Shown here in pieces: positions 1 to 46,564 of a stretch of DNA of 64,000 nt (position 1 is the first letter of the stretch; every line of letters starts with the position of its first letter). The notes beneath the pieces were generated by a model. That model was not told the DNA's origin. It saw only the letters and a program-made list of their open reading frames with translations, and did not search any database. The translations under genes were made by a program, and so were the position numbers. The stretch covers positions 186,001-250,000 of the forward strand of contig NZ_CP072643.1 of NCBI RefSeq assembly GCF_018304765.1, given 5' to 3'. Source of the stretch: Chloracidobacterium sp. N. GTDB taxonomy: Bacteria > Acidobacteriota > Blastocatellia > Chloracidobacteriales > Chloracidobacteriaceae.

Positions 1-790
1 GTTGTGGACAATGGCTGTCCGAAATGCACATACACCCGGCAAAACGTTGGATCGGCACATCCAGCGCAAAGAAACCGTCGGTCAGGTTGCGGCTGTCAGG
101 GGTAAGCATCGGTAAGTTCCCACCCTTGACCCAGACCTGGGCAGTCGTGAAAGACGACTGAGACTGTTTCAGGAATTCCACCGCCTGGGGCGTCAGAGCT
201 ACCCGATCGGGATCAAGCAGGATCAGCGGCTGTGGGAACAACTCCCCCACCGTCAGATCAAGCACCTTCTTTTCATGAGGCGAAAGAAGGTCATACCGGG
301 CGCGAATACGATCCGGCTTCAACCCGGAGTAGTATGCCTGCCGACGCATCTCTGGAATGATGGACTCAACATGCCAGGCGGAGATTCGGCGCAGGGTCTC
401 GGCTTCGGCAGGATAGCGTTGGTAGTAAGGTTTCATCCCGGCCAGGAATGCCCGGGTACTGACATCCACCGGCAGATACCAGGCGATGAACATCCGCAAG
501 GCCGGAGGGAAGCGGTAAAACAGCGCAACCTGTTGTTCCTCGGGCTGGCGGTCAATATATCCGGCAATTTCGTAGCAGAGGTTCAGGAAAAACGGGAAGC
601 GGCGGGTCAGGCTCGCGGGCTTGATTGTCCTTTCGGAAGACACTTCGGGAGAGGTGGCGCCTGGTGTCCCTTGAGCGCAAACAGCATACCCCTTGGTGGG
701 TGGCACTGCCCAGGCGGATGAGAAGCTCAAAGTCCACAGGCAACAGCCGCCCAAAACAACCCACAGCAGAATGTCACGGAGAACAGGCAT
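1..790 (-). CDS. Secreted Cys-tailed protein, family copy A (3' end outside window)
   Basis: The frame opens with ATG at 790 and stays open for 263 codons to the window edge. The N-terminus is a signal peptide (hydrophobic ILLWVVLGGCCLW, then SSAWA). A helical body follows with FPPALRMFIAWYLP, RYPAEAETLRRIS and LSPHEKKVLDL, then NLTDGFFALDV and a Cys pair, CMCISDSHC, at the edge. The same order of blocks recurs at 22699-23544, 35185-36132 and 37846-38791, and as a relic near 46230-46564, so this is a lineage-specific paralogous family. No known domain was recognised and the function is unknown. The start is supported by the signal peptide beginning right after this ATG. Confidence 0.75.
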   Translation of the reverse strand, partial: MPVLRDILLWVVLGGCCLWTLSFSSAWAVPPTKGYAVCAQGTPGATSPEVSSERTIKPASLTRRFPFFLNLCYEIAGYIDRQPEEQQVALFYRFPPALRMFIAWYLPVDVSTRAFLAGMKPYYQRYPAEAETLRRISAWHVESIIPEMRRQAYYSGLKPDRIRARYDLLSPHEKKVLDLTVGELFPQPLILLDPDRVALTPQAVEFLKQSQSSFTTAQVWVKGGNLPMLTPDSRNLTDGFFALDVPIQRFAGCMCISDSHCPQ

Positions 791-10816: not shown

Positions 10817-11578
10817 CTATAACTGGTCACGGATGGCCAGCACCAAGTCACGGAATTCCTCGGCTGACTGCCCGGTGAAGGATTCCAGATTGGCGCGGGC
10901 CTGCTGCCGCAGACGTTCACGCTCACGTCCGTCCGCCGACGTATATTGCGAGTACATCGCCGTTGCCAGAATGGCCAACGACTCGGCCAGCAGTTGCCGC
11001 TCACGGTCGCTTGAAGCCGTAAAATCCCCGTCATTTCCCAGAATCCCCTGGAAAAGCTCATACAACGCATAAGGAACGCCGGGAGGCATCGGCTGGCCGA
11101 AAACAACGGTGTAGTGGTTGTTGAGGTACACCGCAATCGCCGAGCCGACATCTTCAACGGGCCAGCCCTGCTCGACCAGACCACGGCGGTACTCCCGCAA
11201 GGCTTCCTCATAAAAGCGGCGTACCTGAAGCGGATCGCCATCGGCTTCCTGGGCCAGAATCTCCGGGGCAAGCATATCCGCCACGGGACGGTAACTCGTG
11301 ACACTGCGGCGCGGGCCGCGCTGTGGAGCGTTGGGGAAGGTCGTTCCACGGCGTGTCACCGGGCGGTCGGAAAAAATTGCCCCGGCCCGCTCCTCGTAGG
11401 TGTGCATTTTTTCCCGGGCGGGACGGCCGTTGATGGTCGGCCGGCGGCCGACCCGCTCGTAGTCATACCAGTCAGGGTTGGCCGGAGGGCGGGAAGCCGG
11501 CCGGCTCTGCCCCGGCACCCAGATAACGCCACCCAAAACCATCCACAACCCAAGAACAACACGGCATACATTCAGCAT
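10817..11578 (-). CDS. Secreted DUF6683-like protein
   Basis: The ATG at 11578 is preceded by a GAGGTG site and starts a signal peptide (MLNVCRVVLGLWMVLGGVIW). The mature part (254 residues in total) contains VTSYRPVADMLAPEILAQ, a helical block with SAIAVYLNNHYTVVFG, and VPYALYELFQGILG. The same layout occurs at 21826-22590 (VTDFRPRRRQSIAEQF, LTYAVALAVGVAVG), so the two are paralogues. The architecture resembles DUF6683, an uncharacterised family of exported helical proteins; this family assignment is from memory of the pattern. The function is unknown. Confidence 0.7.
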   Translation of the reverse strand: MLNVCRVVLGLWMVLGGVIWVPGQSRPASRPPANPDWYDYERVGRRPTINGRPAREKMHTYEERAGAIFSDRPVTRRGTTFPNAPQRGPRRSVTSYRPVADMLAPEILAQEADGDPLQVRRFYEEALREYRRGLVEQGWPVEDVGSAIAVYLNNHYTVVFGQPMPPGVPYALYELFQGILGNDGDFTASSDRERQLLAESLAILATAMYSQYTSADGRERERLRQQARANLESFTGQSAEEFRDLVLAIRDQL

Positions 11579-19715: not shown

Positions 19716-21128
19716 GTGAACCCTCCCAGAATCATCATTGCCGCGCCGGCCAGCGGTCACGGCAAAAGCACTGTCGCCACGGGACTTATGGCCGCGCTGG
19801 CAGCAGACCGGCGCGTACAGGGGTTCAAAGTCGGCCCCGACTATATTGACCCGATGTACCACACGGCGGCCACGGGGCGGCCCTCACGCAACCTCGACGC
19901 CTGGATGCTGCCGCCGGCTGCGGTGCAACTGGTGTTTGCGCGGGTGGCTGCCACGGCCGACGTGAGCATCATCGAGGGCGTCATGGGCTTTTTTGACGGC
20001 GCCGGCAGCGATCCGCTCGCTGGCAGTACAGCGCAGATGGCGCTGTTGTTGGCGGCTCCGGTCATTCTGGTCGTGGATTGCAGCCACATGTCGGTCAGTG
20101 CGGCGGCGGTTGTCCACGGCTTTCACACGTTTATGCCAAAGGTCAATATCGCTGGCGTCATCTGCAACCGGGTTGGCGGGGAGCGCCATGCCGCATGGCT
20201 GCGGGAGGCCATCACGCAGTACGGCGTTCCAGTACTTGGCTGTCTTCCGTACCTGCCCGACCTTACCATACCGGAGCGGCATCTTGGGCTGTTGACCGTG
20301 GAGGAACGGCCGCAGGCCGTACAGACCTTCCTGGCCCGGGCACGGGAAGCGATGGCACGTGATGTTGATCTGGAGGCGGTCGTGGCGTTGGCTGAAGCCG
20401 CGCCGCCGCTACCGCTGCCGGACAGCGCCGGCCCACTGGCTGCGGCCCTGGCCGCGGCTTCGGATGGCGTGGTTCGGATAGGTGTCGCCCGTGACGAGGC
20501 GTTTTGTTTCTACTACGCGGACAATCTGGACGCGCTGCGGGTCGCGGGTGCGGAGGTCGTGTGGTTCAGTCCGTTGCGCGATGCCGTTCTGCCGCCCGGT
20601 ATCAGCGGGCTGTATTTCGGCGGTGGCTATCCTGAAATTTATGCCGCCGCCCTCAGTGCCAACCGTCCGTTGCTGGCGGCCGTTCGGGAAGCCCACGCCC
20701 AGGAGATGCCGATCTACGCCGAGTGTGGCGGGTTGATGTATCTGACCGAGGCGTTGGAAGATGCCGAAGGGCAGCGCCATCCGATGGTTGGCCTTGTTCC
20801 CGGTGTCTGCCGGATGGAGCGCCGGCTGGTCATGGGCTACCGGGAAGTCAGGCTGGCTGCCGACGGACTTCTGGGCGCGGCCGGACAACGGCTGCGGGGG
20901 CACGAGTTTCACTACTCGACGTGGCAGCGCCCGGAAGGAGCGCCGCCGGCCTACGTCATTGAGCCGCGTCATCCGGCAGAACAACCACGCGCCGAAGGGT
21001 TTGCCAGCGGCTACCTGCATGCCAGCTACATTCACCTGCATTTCGGGCAGGATGCGCGGCTGGCCGCACAGATGGTGGCCCGTTGCCGCCTGTGGCAGGA
21101 AAGCCGGGGGCGGGCGCAGCGTTCATGA
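19716..21128 (+). CDS. cobB: Cobyrinic acid a,c-diamide synthase (CobB/CbiA)
   Basis: The protein has 470 residues. The N-terminal dethiobiotin-synthetase-like domain has the P-loop APASGHGKSTVATGLM and KVGPDYIDPMYH, and VSIIEGVMGFFDG follows. The C-terminal glutamine amidotransferase-like domain carries the nucleophile cysteine in YAECGGLMYLTE and the HASYIHLHF region. The enzyme amidates the a and c carboxylates using glutamine and ATP. GTG at 19716 is used as start, 7 bases after the previous stop. It is the last gene of the operon. Whether the substrate is cobyrinate or hydrogenobyrinate cannot be read directly; the presence of cobN favours the aerobic-type (hydrogenobyrinate) route. Confidence 0.92.
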   Translation: MNPPRIIIAAPASGHGKSTVATGLMAALAADRRVQGFKVGPDYIDPMYHTAATGRPSRNLDAWMLPPAAVQLVFARVAATADVSIIEGVMGFFDGAGSDPLAGSTAQMALLLAAPVILVVDCSHMSVSAAAVVHGFHTFMPKVNIAGVICNRVGGERHAAWLREAITQYGVPVLGCLPYLPDLTIPERHLGLLTVEERPQAVQTFLARAREAMARDVDLEAVVALAEAAPPLPLPDSAGPLAAALAAASDGVVRIGVARDEAFCFYYADNLDALRVAGAEVVWFSPLRDAVLPPGISGLYFGGGYPEIYAAALSANRPLLAAVREAHAQEMPIYAECGGLMYLTEALEDAEGQRHPMVGLVPGVCRMERRLVMGYREVRLAADGLLGAAGQRLRGHEFHYSTWQRPEGAPPAYVIEPRHPAEQPRAEGFASGYLHASYIHLHFGQDARLAAQMVARCRLWQESRGRAQRS

Positions 21129-21153
21129 GAGCCGGGAACCGGGGCGCAGGCAG

Positions 21154-21588
21154 TCACTCGCCGATGACCTTGACGAGCACCCGCTTGGGCCGGTAGCCGT
21201 CAAACTCACCGTAAAAAATCTGCTCCCACGGGCCGAAATCCAGTCGTCCGTTGGTGATGGCGACGACAACCTCCCGTCCCATGATCTGGCGCTTGAGATG
21301 GGCATCGGCATTGTCTTCGCCAGTGCGGTTGTGGTGGTAGTGGTTCGGGTCCGGGTTGAAAGGCGCGAGCTGTTCCAGCCACACGCCGAAGTCGTGGTGC
21401 AGTCCGGCTTCGTCGTCGTTGATGAAGACGCTGGAGGTGATGTGCATGCTGTTGCACAGCACCAGCCCTTCCTTGACGCCGCTGCGCCGCACAATTGCCT
21501 CAACCTGGGGTGTGATGTTGACGAAGGCCATTTTGGAGGGAAGGTTGAAGGTCAGGTATTCCGTCAGGGATTTCATACGCAGTCGCAC
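21154..21588 (-). CDS. YjbQ/UPF0047 family protein
   Basis: The protein has 144 residues, the usual size for this family. [48 protein letters not shown] and [13 protein letters not shown] are characteristic of UPF0047/YjbQ proteins, some of which have been linked to thiamine phosphate synthase activity. The cluster of histidines suggests a metal site. The start could be the ATG at 21588 or the one at 21576. It converges on cobB with a 25-base gap. Confidence 0.88.
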
Positions 21589-21825
21589 CCTTGTGTGAGT
21601 TTGTCCGGCATGATTGCTGATGTGCTGCCGGTGGCCATGATCCTGGGCCGTGTGACAGAAGCAAGGGACGGCGCGCCGTACAAAAATCTGAAAGTACGCG
21701 AAATTTTCTCAAAATCCCCGGCGCTGTATTGCGTTGACACAGTGAAGCACGTATCCTTGTGCCACACGACATTTTGTACCGGCCCCTTCCGATGCGGGCC
21801 GGTTGTGAAAGGAGTTGCGCAAGCG

Positions 21826-22590
21826 ATGTTGAAGTGCAGGGCGCTGCGCCGGAGTTTTGTTTTTTTCTTCCTGTTTGCGTCGTGGCTTGCGGCTGCCTCT
21901 GGTGAGGCGCGCGCCCAGTTTACTGATCCGCTGAGCGGGATGCAGTTTGAGACCATGGCCATGGCGAACCTGAGTCTCATGCTGTCGTTGTCCCAGCGCA
22001 GTGTGTTTTACCAGTCGGTGCCGCTGCGTCTTTCCGGCGACCGGGGGCGGGCCGGCAGCAATGCCCAACGGCGTACGCCGGCGGCCGCACCGGAAAGCCG
22101 TCCGGTACAGACACCGCGCCAGTATGCCGTGACGGATTTTCGTCCGCGCCGGCGGCAGTCCATTGCCGAGCAGTTTGCGTCGTTGTCCAACGACCCGCAG
22201 CAGCGGGCGACGCTGCTTTCGCTGGGCGATGCCATTTTCAAGGAAATTGAGCGAAGCCCGGACTTTCGCAAAAACAACCTGACATACGCGGTGGCTTTGG
22301 CCGTCGGGGTTGCTGTCGGGATTGAACGCGGACGGGACCTCACCGATGAGGAGTCAGAATTTCTGCTGGGGGCAGTTCACGAACTGTTGACCTCTGACCC
22401 GAAGCTGATGCAGCAGCCGGCGGCCGAACTGACAGCCTTGTATGACACATGCCTGTTGTTTGGCGGGCTGATGACGACGTTTCACCTTGACGCCCAACAG
22501 AATGGGACCCGTGAGTCTGAACTGGCGGCCAAGCGGCTGGCCAAGGTCACGCTTCAGGCGCTGGGCTGGCCGACAGATTCGAAAAAGTAA
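21826..22590 (+). CDS. Secreted DUF6683-like protein, paralogue of 10817-11578
   Basis: The open frame starts far upstream, but that part is the shadow of cobB and yjbQ. The ATG at 21826 opens a clear signal peptide (FVFFFLFASWLAAASGEARA) and is preceded by AAAGGAG. The 254-residue product has a disordered stretch, then VTDFRPRRRQSIAEQF, LTYAVALAVGVAVGIERG and a C-terminal helical region. This matches the layout of the protein at 10817-11578. Function unknown; exported. Confidence 0.7.
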   Translation: MLKCRALRRSFVFFFLFASWLAAASGEARAQFTDPLSGMQFETMAMANLSLMLSLSQRSVFYQSVPLRLSGDRGRAGSNAQRRTPAAAPESRPVQTPRQYAVTDFRPRRRQSIAEQFASLSNDPQQRATLLSLGDAIFKEIERSPDFRKNNLTYAVALAVGVAVGIERGRDLTDEESEFLLGAVHELLTSDPKLMQQPAAELTALYDTCLLFGGLMTTFHLDAQQNGTRESELAAKRLAKVTLQALGWPTDSKK

Positions 22591-22698: not shown

Positions 22699-23544
22699 AT
22701 GAAATTCGTATCCATCAAATTTTCCAAGAAAAAAACCATGTTTCTGTTCGGATGTTTTCTGTCCGTTTTTGCCATGACAGGCCCGGTGCTTGGCGTTGTG
22801 TCACAGGAGAAACCTCAATCGCCTCCGGTCGCAGGCAGTGCGTCGCAGGAAAAACCTCAACCGTCACCGGACGATCTGTTTGTTCCCCCGGACTCTCCAA
22901 TACCAGATATAGACTTTTCAATTCTGAATCAAAAATTCAGATTGATGGACCTGGCGCGGGATATTGCCGAAAGCATGAAAAACGAGCCCACGGAGACGAA
23001 GTTTGAAAAAATAATGCAGATGCCATCTGGATTGCGCAGATTTATCATGTGGAGTCTTCCAGAGGAAGAAATAATCCAGCATTTTACGTATACTATGGAA
23101 AAGGAAGTTGCCCCGAAATATCCATCAAAAGCTGCCGATGTCAAAAGCCTGCACCAAAAGATTGTGGAAATGATCCCCGCAATCAGGCAGGCCCTGCAGC
23201 AATCGCGCATATCTTTTGAAATCCCGCGGAAATTTATCATGAGCCTGACGCCTGGTGAAATTGAGATTATTAAAGGAGCAAGTGATCTAAGCCGTATGAA
23301 TTCAGAAGTGTATATCAACATGATGCAAAGCATAGACAAAATGGCTATAGGAGAACGCGGATGGAACTTTCTTGAGAAAATAAGCTCGTTTTCTCCAACC
23401 GCACGTGAACTCATCATGATGTTTCCGCCGGATAAGAGAACAAAACCATCACCTACGGAAGAAGTCATATATGATGACGGATTCATAATTATTATTGATG
23501 ATGGCAAAGGAGAATGTGTAACCCCCAGTCGTAACCAGCATTGA
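22699..23544 (+). CDS. Secreted protein, family copy B with shortened tail
   Basis: The protein has 281 residues, with a signal peptide ([18 protein letters not shown]). The body carries the family blocks [46 protein letters not shown] and [13 protein letters not shown]. The motif equivalent to TDGFF is YDDGFIIII, followed after a few residues by a single cysteine (GEC) and the stop, so the Cys-rich tail seen in copies A, C and D is almost missing. The base composition is visibly more A/T rich than in the neighbours. The function is unknown. Confidence 0.72.
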
Positions 23545-23756
23545 AAGGCCAATGAAATACAGTGGGCTGATGGATGGCAGACCCACCAGGTCAGTCGTGC
23601 AGGCGCAGGATGCTGACCAAGGTACTGCCGCCTGCCAGCAGATGAAAATCCGGGAGTACCTCACCCCCTTTGCCCGGTTCTACGGACGCAGGAATGAGCG
23701 TATGGACGGCTCGTGCACCCCTTTCCTGCGCCTCTACATTGACACCTTTGAGCGGA

Positions 23757-24118
23757 TTGGGCTGGACTTGGGGCAATACACTTAAGAAAACGCTTCATGG
23801 TCTTTGGGCAAGTTCGCAGGTGAATTTGGAGCGTTGGTCCACACCGTCGCGCAGAGCGTTCGTGTCGGGTCGTCCTGATATTTTTTGAGATGTCTTCTTC
23901 AAGACGGGCAATTGCATCCTCGAAGTGACGAATGTCCAACTGGTCTGTTGGTCATGGATGCACCTCAGAATCCAGGGTATTTCCGAAGACCGTTGGCCGG
24001 GAAATACGCTGTTGCTCACCTGAGTATCCATTTTTGCCCCGGCGTTTTCAAAACCAAGTAGCTTTGGATTGTCCTCAATCTTCTGATCTGCGGGCTGGAA
24101 GCCCGCGCTTCCAAGTAT
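23757..24118 (-). pseudogene. Truncated duplicate of the toxin-antitoxin gene start and its upstream region
   Basis: This segment is an imperfect direct copy of 24655-25018. On the minus strand it encodes MDIRHFEDAIARLEEDIS and later [16 protein letters not shown], which match LDIRPFENAIARLEEGIS and KTLKRFLEFVSPSPAQ of the intact gene at 24437-24850, with a frameshifted middle. The rest of the segment copies the region upstream of that gene, including the palindrome GCGGGCTGGAAGCCCGC. It is a non-functional remnant of a tandem duplication. Confidence 0.75.
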
Positions 24119-24440: not shown

Positions 24441-24850
24441 GTGAGCCTTGCCTTCAGTGCGTCGCGCAGATGGCGGGCTTCTTCCAGAAAAGCAGGAATC
24501 CCGGCCACGACTTCGAGCGCAACGCCTTCGTCACAGGTATGACTGGTTTTGCTGCGCATTTCACGGTAGCGCCGCCAGGTCGGCCAATCACCGAGCAGAA
24601 GCCCCTGCTCATTACCGGAACGAATCAGGTCCTGAAAGGACATCTGGTCGTATTGGGCTGGACTTGGGGAAACGAACTCAAGAAAACGCTTCAGGGTCTT
24701 GTGGGCCAGTTCATAGGTGAATTCAAAGCGTTGGATCGCACCGTCGCGCAACAGCGTCCGTGTCGGGTCAGCCTGATATTCTGAGATACCCTCTTCAAGA
24801 CGGGCAATCGCATTCTCGAAGGGACGAATGTCCAACCAGTCTGTGGTCAT
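24437..24850 (-). CDS. HI0074-type nucleotidyltransferase substrate-binding protein (HEPT-like)
   Basis: The protein has 137 residues. FENAIARLEEGISEYQ, RFEFTYELAHKTLKRFLEF, FQDLIRSGNEQGLL and WRRYREMRSKTSH match the HI0074/TIGR01987 family, the helical partner of minimal nucleotidyltransferases and a relative of HEPT toxins. It is the first gene of the pair with 24120-24440. A decayed copy of its start and upstream region lies downstream at 23757-24118. Confidence 0.85.
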   Translation of the reverse strand: MTTDWLDIRPFENAIARLEEGISEYQADPTRTLLRDGAIQRFEFTYELAHKTLKRFLEFVSPSPAQYDQMSFQDLIRSGNEQGLLLGDWPTWRRYREMRSKTSHTCDEGVALEVVAGIPAFLEEARHLRDALKARLT

Positions 24851-25018
24851 GGATGCACCTCAGAATCCAGGGTATTTCCGAAGACCGTTGGCAGGGAAAT
24901 ATACCGCTGTTCACCTGAGTATCCAGGTTCGCCCCGGCGCTTTCAAAACCCAAGTATCTTCAGGTTGTCCTCAACCTTCTGATCTGCGGGCTGGAAGCCC
25001 GCGCTCCCAAGCACCCCA
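24655..25018. repeat. Direct repeat, intact copy (degenerate copy at 23757-24118)
   Basis: About 360 bases from GGGCTGGACTTGGGG to GGCTGGAAGCCCGCGCT occur twice in the same orientation, about 900 bases apart, with roughly 85-90% identity by eye and several indels. The repeat covers the start of the toxin-antitoxin gene, its upstream region and the 3' end of the gene at 24943-26109. It indicates a past tandem duplication followed by decay of one copy. Confidence 0.75.
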
Positions 25019-32093: not shown

Positions 32094-33134
32094 CGGATGC
32101 TTTTTGACGGACCCCCTTGAAACAACGCGACCTCAGCCCCAGTGCCTGTGAACCCTGCCCACCGGGAGAGCGCCGGAAATGGTCCCGGAAGGGGTTACTC
32201 CCGGTAACGCTGGGCCTTTCCGCCCTCGCCTATGCCTACACCGGCTTCCACCTGACCAACCTGCCGGGTGCCGCCGGGGTGCATGCGTTTTTACTTCTGT
32301 TTGCCTGGCTTTTTCTGCTGTATGTGATGGCCGTTCGCACCCTGGCGACACAGCATTTCTGTATCCAACCGGGCTGTGTAGCCGCGTTGGTCGTCCTCGT
32401 TGGCACGGGCTTCCGGCTGCTGGTGCTTCCGGCCGGCATCCCCGACGGGATCACACCAGCCAAACTCCACGCCGACCTCACCGGAAAGGAAGTGGTCTTC
32501 AACCGTTTCCTGCTCTATGACCATGACCTGTGGCGCTTCCTGTGGGACGGACACCAGCAAGCCTTGGGACTCAACCCATACCAGTACCCACCGGCCTGTT
32601 TTCTCGAACCCGACGACGCGCTGGAGTGGGGGCTCACCAGCGTGCCGGCAGCGGAGCGCGCCCGCCTGCTTCCCAATGACCACTGGCGTGATATTCACGC
32701 CCACATCAATCATCCTGACCTTCCAACGGCTTATCCCCCCGGACTCCAGCTCCTGTTCCGCCTGAGTTACACCCTGTTTCCAGGCAGCGTCGTGGGATGG
32801 AAGCTGTGCCTGCTGCTCCTGGACCTGGGCGTGATGGCCCTGCTCTGGCTGACGCTCACGCACTTTGACCAGCCCCCCTGGAAACTGGCGCTTTACGCCT
32901 GGAGTTCGCTCGTCATCAAGGAAGGTGTCGGCACCGGGCACGCCGACGCCCTGGTCGCCTTCATGCTTCTGGGGCTGACTTTGGCACTGGCCCGCGCCCG
33001 GCCGGTGGCCATTGGCATCTGGCTGGCCGCTGCCACGTTGACCGGGATGCGCGGCAAGCCCCGCCGTTCAGGGCGGGGAAGGATAGCGCAGACGGCGAAG
33101 CCGTCCAAACGCAGTTCATAGTACAATCAAGACC

Positions 33135-34424
33135 ATGCTGCGACTTCAAGCCTTCAAGTACGAACTGATACCCAATGGCCGGCAGGAGCGATTGATGCGT
33201 CGCTTCGCCGGCTCATGTCGGTATGTCTATAACAAGGCGCTGGTGCTACAGAAAGAACGGCACGAGAAGGGCGAGAAGAAGTTGGGTTACGCCGGGTTGT
33301 GCAGGTTGCTTACCGAGTGGAGGCACAGCGAGGAAACGGCCTGGCTGGCCGATGCCCCAATTCATCCGCTGCAACAGGCGCTCAAAGACTTGGAGCGGGC
33401 TTACACCAACTTCTTCGCCAAGCGGGCCAACTTCCCGCAATTCAGGAAGAAAGGCCGGTCAGATAGCTTTCGTTACCCCGACCCAAAAGGGATCAAGCTT
33501 GACCAGGCCAACAGCCGTATTTTTCTGCCCAAGCTTGGATGGTTGCGCTACCGCAACAGCCGGGAAGTGCTGGGCACAGTGAAAAACGTCACCGTCAGCC
33601 AGTCTTGCGGCAAGTGGTTTGTGTCAATTCAGACCGAACGTGAAGTTGAGACGCCTCGACCAAAGAGAGGCACGGTTGGGATTGATCTGGGTATTGCCCA
33701 CTTTGCTACGCTTTCGGACGGCACGTTCTTTGCTCCGCTCAACAGCTTCAAGCGGCATGAGGTAGCCTTGCGCAAGGCACAACAATCGCTCTCCCGTAAA
33801 GTCAAAGGCAGTAACAACCGAAAGAAGGCGCTAGCCCGCGTCCAGAAGATTCACGTTCGTATTGCCAATGTCCGGCGCGATTTCCTGCACAAGGTCTCGA
33901 CGGCGATAAGCAAAAACCACGCGGTCGTAGCCATCGAAGACCTGAAGGTGGGCAATATGTCCCGGTCGGCGGCAGGTACGGCCGATGCTCCGGGGAAGAA
34001 TGTCCATACCAAGTCAGGGCTGAATAAGTCCATCCTCGACCAGGGTTGGTACGGGTTCCGTCGTATGCTGGAGTACAAGCTGTCTTGGAAGGGCGGACGC
34101 CTTGTTGCCGTGCCGCCGCAGAACACCAGTCGCACTTGCCCAGGCTGCGGCCACGTGTCGGCGGACAACCGCCAGACCCAAGCCCGGTTCGTATGCGTGG
34201 CGTGCGGCTGTAAGAATAACGCCGACGTTGTTGCTGCAATCAACATCCTTTCCCGCGGGATACAACGATTGCGGGACGAAGGGCAGGACACGGCCAACGC
34301 TTTGGTCGGGATGCAGGTGGACTGGCTGCCTGTGTCAGCCCGGATGGCCTGTGGATCGAACTGCATAGGCAGTCGGAAGCAGGAACCCGCCGAGACGACG
34401 GCGCGTGGAGCGATCCGTGCGTAG
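33135..34424 (+). CDS. tnpB: TnpB RNA-guided nuclease, copy 1
   Basis: The protein has 429 residues and appears intact. The RuvC-like catalytic residues are D184 (VGIDLGIAHFATLSDG), E268 (VVAIEDLKVGNMS) and D364 (NNADVVAAINIL). The zinc finger is C335/C338 (CPGCGHVSAD) and C354/C357 (CVACGC). TnpB proteins of IS605 elements are RNA-guided DNA nucleases that use an RNA from the 3' end of their own gene. The protein is about 80% identical by eye to the copy at 36333-37622 in the first 370 residues and identical over the last 60. Confidence 0.93.
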   Translation: MLRLQAFKYELIPNGRQERLMRRFAGSCRYVYNKALVLQKERHEKGEKKLGYAGLCRLLTEWRHSEETAWLADAPIHPLQQALKDLERAYTNFFAKRANFPQFRKKGRSDSFRYPDPKGIKLDQANSRIFLPKLGWLRYRNSREVLGTVKNVTVSQSCGKWFVSIQTEREVETPRPKRGTVGIDLGIAHFATLSDGTFFAPLNSFKRHEVALRKAQQSLSRKVKGSNNRKKALARVQKIHVRIANVRRDFLHKVSTAISKNHAVVAIEDLKVGNMSRSAAGTADAPGKNVHTKSGLNKSILDQGWYGFRRMLEYKLSWKGGRLVAVPPQNTSRTCPGCGHVSADNRQTQARFVCVACGCKNNADVVAAINILSRGIQRLRDEGQDTANALVGMQVDWLPVSARMACGSNCIGSRKQEPAETTARGAIRA

Positions 34425-34467
34425 TTGTGGTAGGAATCTCCGCCCTTTAGGGCGGGGAGGACGTCAA
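34254..34467 (+). ncRNA. Predicted omega/reRNA of TnpB copy 1
   Basis: In characterised TnpB systems the guide RNA scaffold lies at the 3' end of tnpB and the right end of the element, and the guide is the flanking DNA. Here 214 bases, from 34254 to the end of the element, are identical to 36290-36503 of copy 2, while the rest of tnpB differs. The predicted guide begins at 34468 (CAAACTCGCCCCCCTCCTGC). The expected recognition motif is the left flank TTGAC. The exact 5' end of the RNA cannot be read. Confidence 0.6.
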
Positions 34468-35184
34468 CAAACTCGCCCCCCTCCTGCTGCTTCCCTTTGC
34501 GGTACGTCACCTGCGCTGGGCCGGGAGTTGCGCTTTTGGACTGACCCTCGCCACCGGGCTGTGGCCATTCCGGCACGGAGAAGTCGCCTGGGCGGGACTG
34601 GCGGCCTATACCCAACACTGGACCTTCAACCCCGGCTTCTCCGAACTGTGCCATGGACTGCTCCACCTGAGTGGACTTCCACTCAACCATGCGGTCCTGG
34701 CCAGGACCATCAGCGGCGGTGTGTTTCTGACCCTGCTCTTCCTGTACCGCCGTCAGTTGCCGCTCACACCCCGGTCCGCCCCCGAAACGCTGCTCTGCGT
34801 GCTTGGTGGACTGTTCTTTTTCAGCCCGACCGTCATGCCCTGGTACTTCATCTGGATCATCCCCCTTGCCGCCCTGACCGGACAGTGGTCCTGGCTGCTG
34901 TACGGCGGACTCTCCGTACTCTCATACCTGATCTATGCGGACAGTGACGGTCGGGAGTCAGCCACCCGCCTGCTCCTCATTCACGGAAGCTTTTGCGTTG
35001 CCTGGTTCATAGAGCGCCACCGGGTACGCTCCCGGACCACCCCGAACATCACATAGCCATGCCATGAACCCTCCCCTGAGCCGACGGGCACTCTTCTGCA
35101 TCTGGCTCCCGTAAGGATGTCCGGGTTTTTGAGGAGTCCTTGCCGTATATCCCTGGTTTCCGGATGACCCGGTTGAGGGAAGGC

Positions 35185-36132
35185 TCAGGATGAGGACTGG
35201 ACCGGGGGGGCGGGCATCTTTTCAGACGGGAGGCATTTTCCCTGACATGGAATGATGACCCCCAGCAGGTGACAGCAGGTGAAGGTGTCTGATGGAGGAG
35301 CGGGGATGGAAACATGGCAGACCGAACCCGGCAGGCAATCCACATCGGTTGCGCAGTCACAGGTGGCGAGGCGCGGTGCCGCAAAAAAACCGTCGGTTTC
35401 ATAATGGGTGGCAAAATCAGGCGCCGCAGGGTCGCCCGGGAAAGGGCTGAACGGAAACAGGTCTATCTCTTCCCGGAGTCTATCATAACGGGACAGCCAG
35501 TCATTGATGACGGGAACCGTCGTCGGAAGAATCCAGACCCGGTTGCGGTGGCGCAGATGGAGAGCCGGATGAAACCACTCCCGGTGCAATACCAGGGCCA
35601 GGTTTTTTTCTTCCGGGGTCAGGGACTGCAGCCATTCCGCACCAACTTCCCGGAAGAGGGGGAGTGCCGCCGCATTGTTGGGCGGCGCGTCCTGCAGGCG
35701 ATAGAGTTCGGCTGTCTTGGCAAAAAGGCTGTGAACCGTTGCCGTCTGGTGGGGGAACCGGGTGCAGGCCCTTTCTTCCAGCATGGAGAGCAGGGTCAGA
35801 CTGGTCTCCGGGTCCATCATGCGGAGAATGAAAAAACGCAGTGGAGGTGGGATGGAAAGCAGGTGGTCCAGCCAGCGTTCACGTGGGAGGCGGTTAAAGT
35901 CGCGGGCCATTTCGCAAGCCAGGGAAAGGGTCACCGAGTGGTTCGGAACGGAATGCAGCCGGCACCACCATTCCTCGATGTGAACCCTGATTTTCCACGG
36001 GATGACCCATTCCCAGAAGACCAGCACCACCAGCAGGGAAGCCCCGGCCACGGCAAGCCAGACTATCAGCCGCCGGAAACGGGAGGGCAGAAAGCGCAGG
36101 ATGGGGTGCTGTGATGTTCTGGAAATCGGCAT
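35185..36132 (-). CDS. Membrane-anchored/secreted Cys-tailed protein, family copy C
   Basis: The protein has 315 residues. The N-terminal hydrophobic segment LIVWLAVAGASLLVVLVFW anchors or exports it. Family blocks are PPPLRFFILRMMDP, RFPHQTATVHSLFAKTAELY and LTPEEKNLALVLHREWFHP. The motif HYETDGFFAAP is followed by a cysteine-rich tail, CDCATDVDCLPGSVC, then CCHLLGVIIPCQGKC and a Pro/Ser end. The eight cysteines in about 45 residues suggest a disulfide-bonded exported domain. A decayed close copy lies near 46230-46564. The function is unknown. Confidence 0.75.
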   Translation of the reverse strand: MPISRTSQHPILRFLPSRFRRLIVWLAVAGASLLVVLVFWEWVIPWKIRVHIEEWWCRLHSVPNHSVTLSLACEMARDFNRLPRERWLDHLLSIPPPLRFFILRMMDPETSLTLLSMLEERACTRFPHQTATVHSLFAKTAELYRLQDAPPNNAAALPLFREVGAEWLQSLTPEEKNLALVLHREWFHPALHLRHRNRVWILPTTVPVINDWLSRYDRLREEIDLFPFSPFPGDPAAPDFATHYETDGFFAAPRLATCDCATDVDCLPGSVCHVSIPAPPSDTFTCCHLLGVIIPCQGKCLPSEKMPAPPVQSSS

Positions 36133-36289: not shown

Positions 36290-36503
36290 TTGACGTCCTC
36301 CCCGCCCTAAAGGGCGGAGATTCCTACCACAACTACGCACGGATCGCTCCACGCGCCGTCGTCTCGGCGGGTTCCTGCTTCCGACTGCCTATGCAGTTCG
36401 ATCCACAGGCCATCCGGGCTGACACAGGCAGCCAGTCCACCTGCATCCCGACCAAAGCGTTGGCCGTGTCCTGCCCTTCGTCCCGCAATCGTTGTATCCC
36501 GCG
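36290..36503 (-). ncRNA. Predicted omega/reRNA of TnpB copy 2
   Basis: This is the 214-base segment identical to 34254-34467 of copy 1, covering the last codons of tnpB and the right-end hairpin. By analogy with studied TnpB systems it is the guide-RNA scaffold. The predicted guide starts at 36289 on the minus strand (GGGCTCTGCAGTTGATCGTG), which is the 3' end of the interrupted gene copy D. Confidence 0.6.
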
Positions 36504-37622
36504 AGAAAGGATGTTGATCGCGCCAACAACGTCGGCGTTATTCTCATAGCCGCACGCCACGCATACGAACCGGGCTTGGGTCTGGCGGTTGTCCGCCGAC
36601 ACGTGGCCGCAGCCTGGGCAAGTGCGACTGGTGTTCTGCGGCGGCACGGCAATGAGATGGCCGCCTCTCCACGCCAGCTTGTAGTCCAGTTGGCGGCGGA
36701 ACTCGAACCAGCCCTGGTCGAGAATGGATTTGTTCAGGCCGGACTTGGCCCGAACGTTTCTTCCCGGCGCATCTGCCGTGCCTGCCGCCGACTTGGACAT
36801 ATTACGCACCTGCAAGTCCTCGATACACACCATCGCGTGGTTTTTGCTGATCGCGGTCGAGGCCTTGTGCAGGAAATCGCGGCGGGCGTTGCCGATGCGG
36901 GAATGGATGCGCTGGACGCGGGCTTTCGCCTTCTTCCAGTTGTTGCTGAACTTGACCTTGCGGCTCATGGCTTGCTGCGCTTTGCGCAGGGCAACCTCAT
37001 GCCGCTTGAAGCTGTTGAGGGGTGTCCAGAACGTGCCGTCCGAGAGCGTAGCGAACCGGGCAATACCCATGTCGATGCCGACCGCGCCACCCTGCGGGAT
37101 GGCCTGCTCGACCTCTCGCTCGGTCTGAATGGAAACGAACCACTTGCCGCCGCTCAGGCTGACGGTGACGTTGCGCAGATCGCCCAGCACTTTCCGGCTG
37201 TTGCGATAGCGCAGCCAACCGAGCTTGGGCAAAAAGATACGGCTATTGCCCTGATCGAGTTTGATTTGCTTGGGGTCGGGATAGCGGAAGCTGTCCGACC
37301 GCCCCTTCTTCTTGAAGCGCGGAAAGTCGGCGCGTTTGGCGAAGAAGTTGCTGTAGGCGCGCTCCAAGTCCTTGAGTTTTTGTTGCAGCGGGTGAATCGG
37401 TGCATCGGCCAGCCAAGCTGTCTCTGCGCTATTGCGCCACTCAGTGAGCAACTTGCACAGCCCGGCATAGCCGAGCTTCTTCTCGCCACGCTCGTAGCGC
37501 TCCTTCTGCAAGGCCAATGCTTTGTTGTAGATGAACCGGCAAGCGCCAGCGAAGCGGCGCATCTGCCGCTCCTGCTGGCCGTTTGGCATGAGTTCGAATC
37601 TGAAGGCCTGGAGGCGTTGCAT
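36333..37622 (-). CDS. tnpB: TnpB RNA-guided nuclease, copy 2
   Basis: The protein has 429 residues and looks intact. Catalytic residues are D184 (VGIDMGIARFATLSDG), E268 (VCIEDLQVRNMSKS) and D364 (NNADVVGAINIL). The zinc finger uses CPGCGHVSAD and CVACGYE. Differences from copy 1 are spread through the first 370 residues, and the last 60 residues are identical. With an intact nuclease in an element that lacks a working tnpA, it resembles retained TnpB loci that persist by homing or guide-directed maintenance; this is inference. Confidence 0.93.
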   Translation of the reverse strand: MQRLQAFRFELMPNGQQERQMRRFAGACRFIYNKALALQKERYERGEKKLGYAGLCKLLTEWRNSAETAWLADAPIHPLQQKLKDLERAYSNFFAKRADFPRFKKKGRSDSFRYPDPKQIKLDQGNSRIFLPKLGWLRYRNSRKVLGDLRNVTVSLSGGKWFVSIQTEREVEQAIPQGGAVGIDMGIARFATLSDGTFWTPLNSFKRHEVALRKAQQAMSRKVKFSNNWKKAKARVQRIHSRIGNARRDFLHKASTAISKNHAMVCIEDLQVRNMSKSAAGTADAPGRNVRAKSGLNKSILDQGWFEFRRQLDYKLAWRGGHLIAVPPQNTSRTCPGCGHVSADNRQTQARFVCVACGYENNADVVGAINILSRGIQRLRDEGQDTANALVGMQVDWLPVSARMACGSNCIGSRKQEPAETTARGAIRA

Positions 37623-37645
37623 AACCGCAATTATACTCTTGGTCT

Positions 37646-37774
37646 ATGGGTGATGACAACGATATTCGACATGGGCGGCACTGTGTTTTCAAGGTGCACG
37701 TTCACGTGGTCTTTTTGGTGAAATACCATCGTGCGCCAGTACATCGAGCAGCAACAGACACCGCACTGAGATAA
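37646..37774 (+). pseudogene. tnpA: Truncated tnpA (Y1 transposase) remnant
   Basis: ATG at 37646 opens a 42-codon frame with RHCVFKVHVHVVFLVKYHR, the conserved first strand of IS200/IS605 Y1 transposases, and then ends in unrelated sequence. The HUH motif and the catalytic tyrosine are absent, so it cannot be active. It is divergent from tnpB, as in IS605-type elements, which shows that this lineage once had the two-gene layout. Confidence 0.8.
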
Positions 37775-38931
37775 ACCCAAAGGACGGCTCCGCCGTCTGC
37801 GCTATCCTTCCCCGCCCTGAACGGCGGGGCTTGCCGCGCATCCCGGTCACAGTAAATCCACCAGAACCACCAACTGCATTGTCTGTACCCATGGTTATAA
37901 CATCCCCCGGGGGTGCAGGTTGCCAGTCGTCCCCGACACTCCCGGTTGGTGTTGCAGATGCACCCGGAGGCGGGATTTTTCTGCACATTTCCCTGCGGGA
38001 TGACGAAAAATCCATCGGTGGCATCCTCCGGGGACGGTCTTGTGGTGCCGGATTCGGTATCCGGGGCCTTCGGCAGCGTCAGAAACTGACGGGCAGCCGG
38101 AGATGTGGAAGCCATCCGGGACAACCACTGCCATCCGGCCGGACTGATTTCCGCTTCCGTCGGATAGATCATGAACAGCGAGCCGGGAAAAAGCGCATCG
38201 CCAATGGCCGAGGCCAGGATTTTTTCCGCCGGTTTGAGGCTGTCCTTGAACGCCCGTGCCACGTTGCCCGACATCCGGCCGGTTCTCCGCACCTTTTCAA
38301 ACAGGGGCAGCAGGGCCAGATACTTTTTCTCCAGGGAGGCCACCGTTGCGCTTTGCCGGGGGTAGCGGGCGATCATTTCCTGCATTCCGGTCCGCACGAT
38401 TCCGGACTGGGTGGATGTGGAGAGATGCCAGAAGACATACATCTGCAGCCCCTCCGGGATTTCCCTGAAGCGCAGCAGGTGCTCGCGGGGGGGCTTTCTC
38501 GATGGCGTCTGCAAGTTCCTGCGCCAGTTGAAGCAGCGGAAACCGGCGGTTCAGGTCCGACAGATTGAGATCATCCGCACCGGACTCCCAGGCCGCCGAA
38601 AGCCAGGCGGTATCGGCATCGGTACCGGCGACGGTGGAGGGGGGGGCGGTGCGGGCCGTCATCCGCCATTCCGGCTCGAAGGGCTTCCACATGGACTGCC
38701 CGAAGGCGGAAGGCGTGAGGAAAACGGAGAGCAGGAACAGACGCAGGGCAGGTCCGGCGCACCGGAAACGGGCGGATGAATGACGAGGCATGAGGCTCTT
38801 CCTTTCTTGAAAGTTGTTGGAAACAGGGTGTCCTTCAGCTTCAGGGAGGAGGGGCGTCAGGCACCGGAAACACGGGCAGAACCGGATCATCGGCCGGTAC
38901 AGCCCGTTGTCCGGTCCCGGACGGACAGGGT

Positions 38932-44570: not shown

Positions 44571-45610
44571 TCACTCCGGGCGTCCTGATCGGCGCAGCGG
44601 GATGAGGACCTCTTCATGAAACCGGTCACAGCCGATACAGAAATTGCGATACGTGGCCCCGGAAGGCAGTCGCATCTGGGATTTTTCAACGAAGGTCTCG
44701 ACCGACCAGCCGTGGCGGATGCCCATCCGTTCGGGATGCCCCATGGAAATGGCTTCGTAAACCGGGTCTCCCTGCAGCCGGTCCAGGATGGCATCGAGGG
44801 GATCCTCCAGCAGATTGCCAATCGCCAGTCTGGTCTTTAGACAACAGGGATAGACATTGCCATTCGGTTCGATGGAAACCTCCGAACCCTGAAAATTGGG
44901 CTGCAAAAAGCCCACCCCACCCGAGAGCTGGTTACAAAAGTTGTCGCACAGCCGGGCGGTGGACAACTCGTTCACCATGGCGCGCCCGCGCGGCCAGAGC
45001 TTTCCAATCCACAAGTCCGGTTGCGCGCCGAAAAACAGGTAGGTCGGCCGCCCCTGTGGCGTGAGATGGCCACGCCTGGCGTCTTCGAGCGCGAGCTTCC
45101 GTACCCCCCGCGTTTCGAGCAACATGGTGAGGCGTGTCACAAACCCAAGCTGCGCCGCTTTGGTTTCGAGCCCCTTGTGAAAACTATCCACCCCTGAAAT
45201 CAGCAGGCACGAGACATGACGCGCAACCAGCGCGTCAATCAAGCTCCAGGTCAGCAGGTCTCCGGTGGTCTGGACAACGATGTGAACGCCGCCTTCGGTG
45301 GCATATTTGCGATGAATTGCCTCCATGGCCGGATAGAGAACCTGTTCGCGGACGGCTGGCAGCAGGACTTCCCCCCAGCCAGAATGATGCGCCCGACCTT
45401 TTCCCGGGGTCTGCCCTGTTCATCGGGATCATGGAGATCGAAATAGCGCATGTGTTGCGGCAGGTTCGCAACCAGGCGCTCGATGTTGCGCGCTGATTCA
45501 GCAACCAGGGACTTCATTTCCTCACCCTGGTAGGGGTGAAACCGATCATCGTAGCAGTGGGGGCACTGCCGATGGCAGGGCCAGGACAGAACAAAGTAAA
45601 TGGATTCCAT
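44571..45610 (-). pseudogene. Radical SAM/SPASM protein, frameshifted at a G6 tract
   Basis: The 5' half (45610-45377) has C12-x3-C16-x2-C19 (CHRQCPHC) and VGRIILAGG. The 3' half, in another frame to 44571, has EAIHRKYATEGGVHIVVQTTGD, a SPASM-like region (EVSIEPNGNVYPCCLKTRL) and FCIGCDRF. At the six Gs (45371-45376) one extra base would join them as RIILAGGEVLLPAVREQVLY and give a 346-residue enzyme. The break is a single missing base in a homopolymer, so the gene may be functional in the organism if this is an error or a variable tract. Confidence 0.8.
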
Positions 45611-46229: not shown

Positions 46230-46564
46230 CGTCCGGCAGGTTTGGGGCAGAGGGGAGTGGTTTCACCCCAGTCTGTACCTGTGTCACTGAAACCAATCCC
46301 CGCTGTCCCGCTACGCCAGACTTTGCCAACGCCTATGAAACCGATGGTTTTTGCAGCGCCACGCCTGGCAAGCTGTGACTGCGCCACGGATGTGGACGGC
46401 ATGCCGGGTTCGGTCTGCCGGGTTCCCACACCTCCGGCCCAACCGGACTGTTTACCGTCTGCCATCTGTTGGGTGTGATGATTTCCTGCGAGAGAAAATG
46501 CGCTCCAGCACCAGACGGCGATGCCCTTCCGCCTCCGCCTTCACCGCCCCCTTCCCGCTAAAAC
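46230..46564 (+). pseudogene. Relic of the Cys-tailed family (copy E)
   Basis: Three frames together read as the 3' part of copy C: EWFHPSLYLCH and LSRYARL near 46251-46325, PDFANAYETDGF at 46317-46352, then SCDCATDVDGMPGSVC at 46374-46421, and finally FTVCHLLGVMISCERKC at 46447-46497 followed by a Pro-rich end at 46564. These match EWFHPALHLRH, PDFATHYETDGFF, CDCATDVDCLPGSVC and FTCCHLLGVIIPCQGKC of copy C. There are at least two frameshifts and an internal stop. Confidence 0.75.

Follow-up and report, generated by a model that had tools for sequence, protein, structure and literature searches.

The window analysed here is a stretch of 64,000 nucleotides (positions 186001-250000) of the 1,075,403-bp second chromosome (chromosome 2) of Chloracidobacterium sp. 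N, a member of the clump-forming Chloracidobacterium group (Table 1, PMC8245765) with a genome of 3,715,176 bp in two contigs. The locus raises the question whether similar-looking genes lying at five places form a true protein family, how such proteins are built, and what they may do. A sequence-only reading had proposed related genes at these places; translation and HMM searches bear out four copies (A to D) and one remnant, listed below.

Family members and inserted element in the window (window coordinates)
Feature	Position	Strand	Evidence
Copy A, front part	2..790	-	263/306 aa inside window; translation; leave-one-out HMM 1.3e-20
Copy B, tail-less, GC 0.44	22699..23544	+	DDGFI 23 residues from C terminus; leave-one-out HMM 3e-19
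Copy C, 315 aa, N-terminal membrane anchor, full 8-Cys tail	35185..36132	-	leave-one-out HMM 3e-40
Copy D, broken (pseudogene)	38791 down to ~37849	-	frame changes at ~38480, TnpB element enters tail coding sequence at ~37850; leave-one-out HMM 1e-26
TnpB element (IS200/IS605-type) inside D	36290..37850	-	NCBIfam guided_TnpB 2e-109; C. thermophilum counterpart 98.8% identical
Decayed copy, tail region only	46230..46564 (approx.)	+	nearest copy is C, 74% DNA identity

Copy A extends past the window start, and the complete gene, of 306 aa, resides at G000:C2:185870-186790 (L009:1372-2292, minus strand). A genome search added an intact member, copy E, at C2:310602, 60 kb outside the window. C. 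thermophilum carries a near-identical E (E') and one remnant (C2:356223-356489), C. validum a single, tail-less copy, called V. Shine-Dalgarno-like sites precede A (TGGAGG before the ATG), B, D, E and V; none precedes C.

Relatedness was measured by leave-one-out tests, in which an HMM made of all copies but one was searched against 2,382 six-frame segments. The omitted copy was recovered in every case, at E-values from 4e-12 (V) to 3e-40 (C), and so were the window remnant (1e-5 to 7e-7) and the C. thermophilum remnant (4e-10 to 2e-18). The next background match scored 0.013, matches at 0.01-0.1 corresponded mostly to the N-terminal part of D itself, and non-family frames were worse than 0.05. 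Since each left-out copy was recovered well above non-family frames, the family does not result from chance: it is genuine, and its members are related far beyond chance. A search of this type had been proposed as a check on the significance of the relationship, and significant it is, at 4e-12 or better for all copies. Paralogues are 15-32% identical in the body.

No credible member was found outside Chloracidobacterium in 162 genomes of the class and 396 of the phylum; in the phylum search the five best candidates per genome were scored, so that distant members could be missed. No relatives came from scanning genome and viral contigs with the tail patterns, genome contigs with copy B, or viral contigs with copy V. 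A tblastn search of plasmids and phages gave nothing credible (one match, E 0.5, in a Shinella record), and a viral fold library gave zero matches. No Pfam or NCBIfam model exceeded its cut-off for any member, which agrees with the earlier remark that no described family has this layout. Several candidates were rejected: tail-like matches elsewhere in the genome (L030, L031) are other genes or shadow frames, another is a frame within a subtilisin/BACON gene, and the weak match L008 was examined and is not a family member. Judged by these searches, the family is undescribed in the libraries and restricted to Chloracidobacterium among the genomes searched. Its products are apparently secreted.

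All members follow the same domain order: a hydrophobic N terminus, a body, a motif of the TDGFF type and, where present, a cysteine-rich tail. The signal peptide or anchor, the sequence blocks and the motif described by the sequence-only reading are all present in the alignment, where the shared blocks read P-x-x-L-R, Y/F-P, L-x-P-x-E and DG-F. No transmembrane segments follow the hydrophobic N termini, which hydropathy and n-region charge, the only features used for export prediction, mark as putative signal peptides (an anchor in C). A disordered linker would come next, leading to an alpha-helical body of ~150-200 residues. In the AlphaFold model of copy A the first half of the body is predicted at pLDDT ~92-97. 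Model confidence for the tail is only moderate (pLDDT ~50-77). The motif occurs as TDGFF in A, C and D, TDGLF in E, DDGFI in B, and SDGIF in V. It lies in predicted strands, and would form a short beta segment (T/S/D-D-G-F/I/L-F/I) at the end of the body. Because of this location, and because tail-less proteins keep it, its most likely role is to close the body, not to mark a cleavage site.

The tail had been viewed as variable, with CMCISDSHC as its form in A. The window edge cuts A at this point, and the complete tail has 8 cysteines, aligned with those of C, D and E. The four tails share one framework, CxC-x5-C ... C-x8-C-x3-C, with cysteine spacings of 1,5,12,4,6,8,3 in A, 1,5,5,13,0,8,3 in C, 1,5,5,14,8,3 in E and, as far as the insertion, 1,5,6,4,7,8 in D. 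In every pair of tail-bearing paralogues identity is higher in the tail than in the body (45% vs 32% for C/E, 31% vs 22% for A/C, 33% vs 21% for A/D), the reverse of the conserved front and diversified end first described. HMMs made of tails only, without the TDGFF motif, recovered A, D, C and E at 2e-9 to 4e-4 in leave-one-out tests, the tail being the best stretch each time. Given one cysteine framework, and tails more alike than bodies, the ~50-residue C-terminal region, with its seven or eight cysteines, is by sequence a conserved, optional, putatively disulfide-type domain, not a diversified core. The apparent diversity results from the window edge in A, the TnpB insertion in D and, in B and V, the lack of any tail. 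The case exposes a methodological trap: the edge of a window, together with missing domains and a mobile element, mimicked a diversified tail.

Copies B and V lack the tail, and no tail remnant follows their stops. They are also AT-rich: GC is 0.47 in V and lower still in B, against 0.58-0.60 in A, C, D and E. Such a composition hints at a foreign origin. Neither gene could be traced to a horizontal donor, and B and V were unsupported as a pair in a quick tree. The tail of E features seven cysteines, an odd number that makes intramolecular pairing of all impossible; binding of metal or a bond between molecules is possible.

The location of the motif at the junction of body and tail, and tails of 7-8 cysteines, had suggested that the proteins are precursors, cleaved after TDGFF to release a cysteine-rich peptide. 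The family resembles RiPP and other leader-core precursors in having a Cys-rich C-terminal end behind a conserved motif, but differs from them in the large folded body, the Sec-type signal, the conserved cysteine framework, the presence of tail-less members, and the lack of maturation enzymes. Among RiPP modification and export genes, only a frameshifted SPASM-type gene was found near the decayed copy, and none among the neighbours scanned elsewhere. This gene, of the radical SAM/SPASM type (window 44571-45610, minus strand; SPASM 1e-6), is split by the frameshift. Since a hypervariable core is missing, ~200 residues form a folded body, the copies share no modification gene, and the motif is retained in B and V, where there is nothing to release, the precursor reading loses its basis; the tail is more conserved than the body, and strands are predicted at the presumed cleavage site. 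We regard it as very improbable.

Secretion, a common N-terminal part and a C-terminal module are features that the family shares with polymorphic secreted toxins. The proteins might accordingly be imagined as bacteriocin-like factors acting against mat competitors, the Cys-rich tail being the active or receptor-binding part, and their multiple copies, very divergent paralogues and sporadic distribution are in line with such a role. In contrast to polymorphic toxins, they carry one homologous tail, built on a single cysteine framework and not swapped among copies, and no conserved immunity gene: neighbours differ at each copy, and none is shared that could be a candidate for this function. No PADLOC match was below E 0.03. 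A role in antagonism is therefore unlikely.

Whether the body belongs to a characterised family was a further check on the first reading, and only a resemblance below threshold emerged. A genome match once considered as a member (L038) proved to be an MgtE protein, and drew attention to the resemblance to MgtE_N. MgtE_N (PF03448) is the top Pfam match of three members, at E-values of 0.0016-0.01; scores of 15.8-19.5 bits for E, E' and V fall below the gathering cut-off of 25.9 bits. The match spans 40-53 residues per protein, and A, B and C gave no MgtE_N match in the Pfam search. MgtE is also the top PDB sequence match (E 0.082). It leads the Foldseek results obtained with the models of two members, at E 0.057 and 0.011 (probability 0.57 and 0.93, respectively); taken alone, these Foldseek matches are not significant. 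In a profile comparison (hhalign), 12 MgtE_N domains from relatives matched the family at E 2.6e-6 and 8.6e-6, pairwise values that overstate significance because MgtE_N had been picked as the best database match. The profile score was 43.6, whereas 150 column shuffles reached at most 16.8, and the reversed sequence 9.2; single MgtE_N sequences scored up to 46.0, and 3/12 exceeded the best (27.8) of 800 unrelated-frame slices. An additional MgtE_N candidate, at C2:879093, sits in a low-complexity repeat and was discarded. In our reading, the likeness, which concerns profiles and predicted folds, reflects a related fold or homology that is very remote, and not membership.

The body shares with MgtE_N and FliG-type repeats a helical-hairpin pattern over ~45-95 residues. 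It differs from MgtE_N because the proteins are predicted to be exported, not cytosolic, and carry the extra motif and, in most copies, the Cys-rich tail. Unlike the MgtE transporter, the family features neither a CBS pair nor a transmembrane Mg2+ channel domain (no Pfam match, no internal transmembrane segment). As MgtE_N is the nearest fold, and a Cys-rich tail could bind metal, the proteins could serve in the periplasm as sensors, stores or chaperones of Mg2+ or another metal. This appears improbable, as the match is short as well as below cut-off, and neither a transporter nor a two-component gene was found beside any copy.

Other than mobile elements, no neighbour gene was seen at more than one of the copies A, B, C/D, E and V. 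Convergent with copy A is a gene for a 1467-aa subtilisin-like protein with a BACON domain (L014:5230-9633), and a perfect, terminator-like 28-bp palindrome (L014:9800-9827) lies between the two. Beside B there is an 86% direct repeat of ~365 bp (window 23753-24117 and 24649-25011). B is adjoined by a 609-aa ORF encoding a DUF6683 (PF20388) protein (window 20761-22590, plus strand); since a signal-peptide-like stretch is found after ~residue 350, the ORF is probably overextended and the true start internal. This protein is like the family in apparent secretion, size (~250 aa) and helical content. Unlike B, the adjoining gene is conserved in C. thermophilum, where B is missing, and a profile similarity of 1.3 bits, not significant, led us to discard DUF6683 as a relative.

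Comparison with other species shows that members are present or absent at separate sites. Window positions 1064-22594 are collinear with C. thermophilum C2:327586-350766. Directly after the collinear block, the 1.5 kb carrying B correspond to 148 bp in C. thermophilum, where B is absent. Copy A sits at a rearrangement breakpoint relative to the same genome. For the interval 27.2-46.9 kb, in which C, D and the remnant lie, the part of the C. thermophilum chromosome that was compared offers nothing equivalent except the TnpB element. The remnant precedes a GmrSD-type gene in both strain N and C. thermophilum, the surviving fragments being different. C. validum and another relative (G002) share the conserved gene upstream of E, and both lack E at that site. 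Copy E is under purifying selection: relative to its C. thermophilum counterpart, 9 synonymous and 3 non-synonymous changes were counted (pN/pS 0.11; binomial P 4e-4).

Two TnpB elements, the one within D and another at window 33039-34469, face each other around copy C. In C. thermophilum, the site of the element nearly identical to that in D corresponds to an empty site at window 10825-10831. A truncated IscB-like gene (RRXRR + HNH; L005:2736-3713, minus strand) is located ~340 bp behind copy E, and a similar IscB copy is found near the C. thermophilum remnant. Family genes may be viewed as non-adaptive passengers of IS200/IS605-type TnpB/IscB elements, as TnpB occurs on both sides of C, within D and beside V, and IscB next to E and in the vicinity of the C. 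thermophilum remnant. TnpB sequences are, however, common on chromosome 2, which hosts 20/22 matches in the genome; none was found next to A or B, an element interrupts D rather than carrying it, and purifying selection acts on E. There is little probability that the genes are mere passengers.

The reading we prefer, tentatively and at somewhat less than even confidence, is that the family, restricted to the genus, consists of two-domain proteins that are exported by Sec, probably lack enzymatic activity, have a binding or surface/matrix role, and have been gained and lost in the course of evolution. From the sequences we infer export by the Sec pathway, disulfides formed outside the cytoplasm, where they would be expected, and no enzymatic activity. 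The only invariant columns of the body are prolines, a single Glu and the motif's DG, hence a binding role is suggested rather than a catalytic one. The helical body, its first half being a putative MgtE_N/FliG-like repeat module, and the Cys-rich cap would act as interaction modules of binding or surface/matrix proteins in the mat, and accessory copies would be acquired, lost or disrupted at separate sites of a rearrangement-prone second chromosome. A role at the surface or in the matrix would suit an organism that lives in mats. Among the three species compared (C. validum, C. thermophilum strain B and strain N), clumping is not tied to copy number: C. validum, with one tail-less copy, aggregates, and strain B, with one full copy, is homogeneous. 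A bolder view, possible if rather doubtful, is that a MgtE_N/FliG-like repeat, cytoplasmic elsewhere, works outside the cell together with a conserved disulfide-rich cap, in a variable surface/matrix repertoire expanded in a clump-forming Chloracidobacterium species.

Chloracidobacterium was long the only genus of its phylum known for chlorophyll-based phototrophy (PMC8245765). We found no published account of proteins that underlie its clumping and its life in mats. The present family, confined to the genus, apparently secreted and subject to gain and loss on chromosome 2, is a concrete candidate for differences among strains, and may provide a small test case for the extracellular use of a cytosolic repeat fold.
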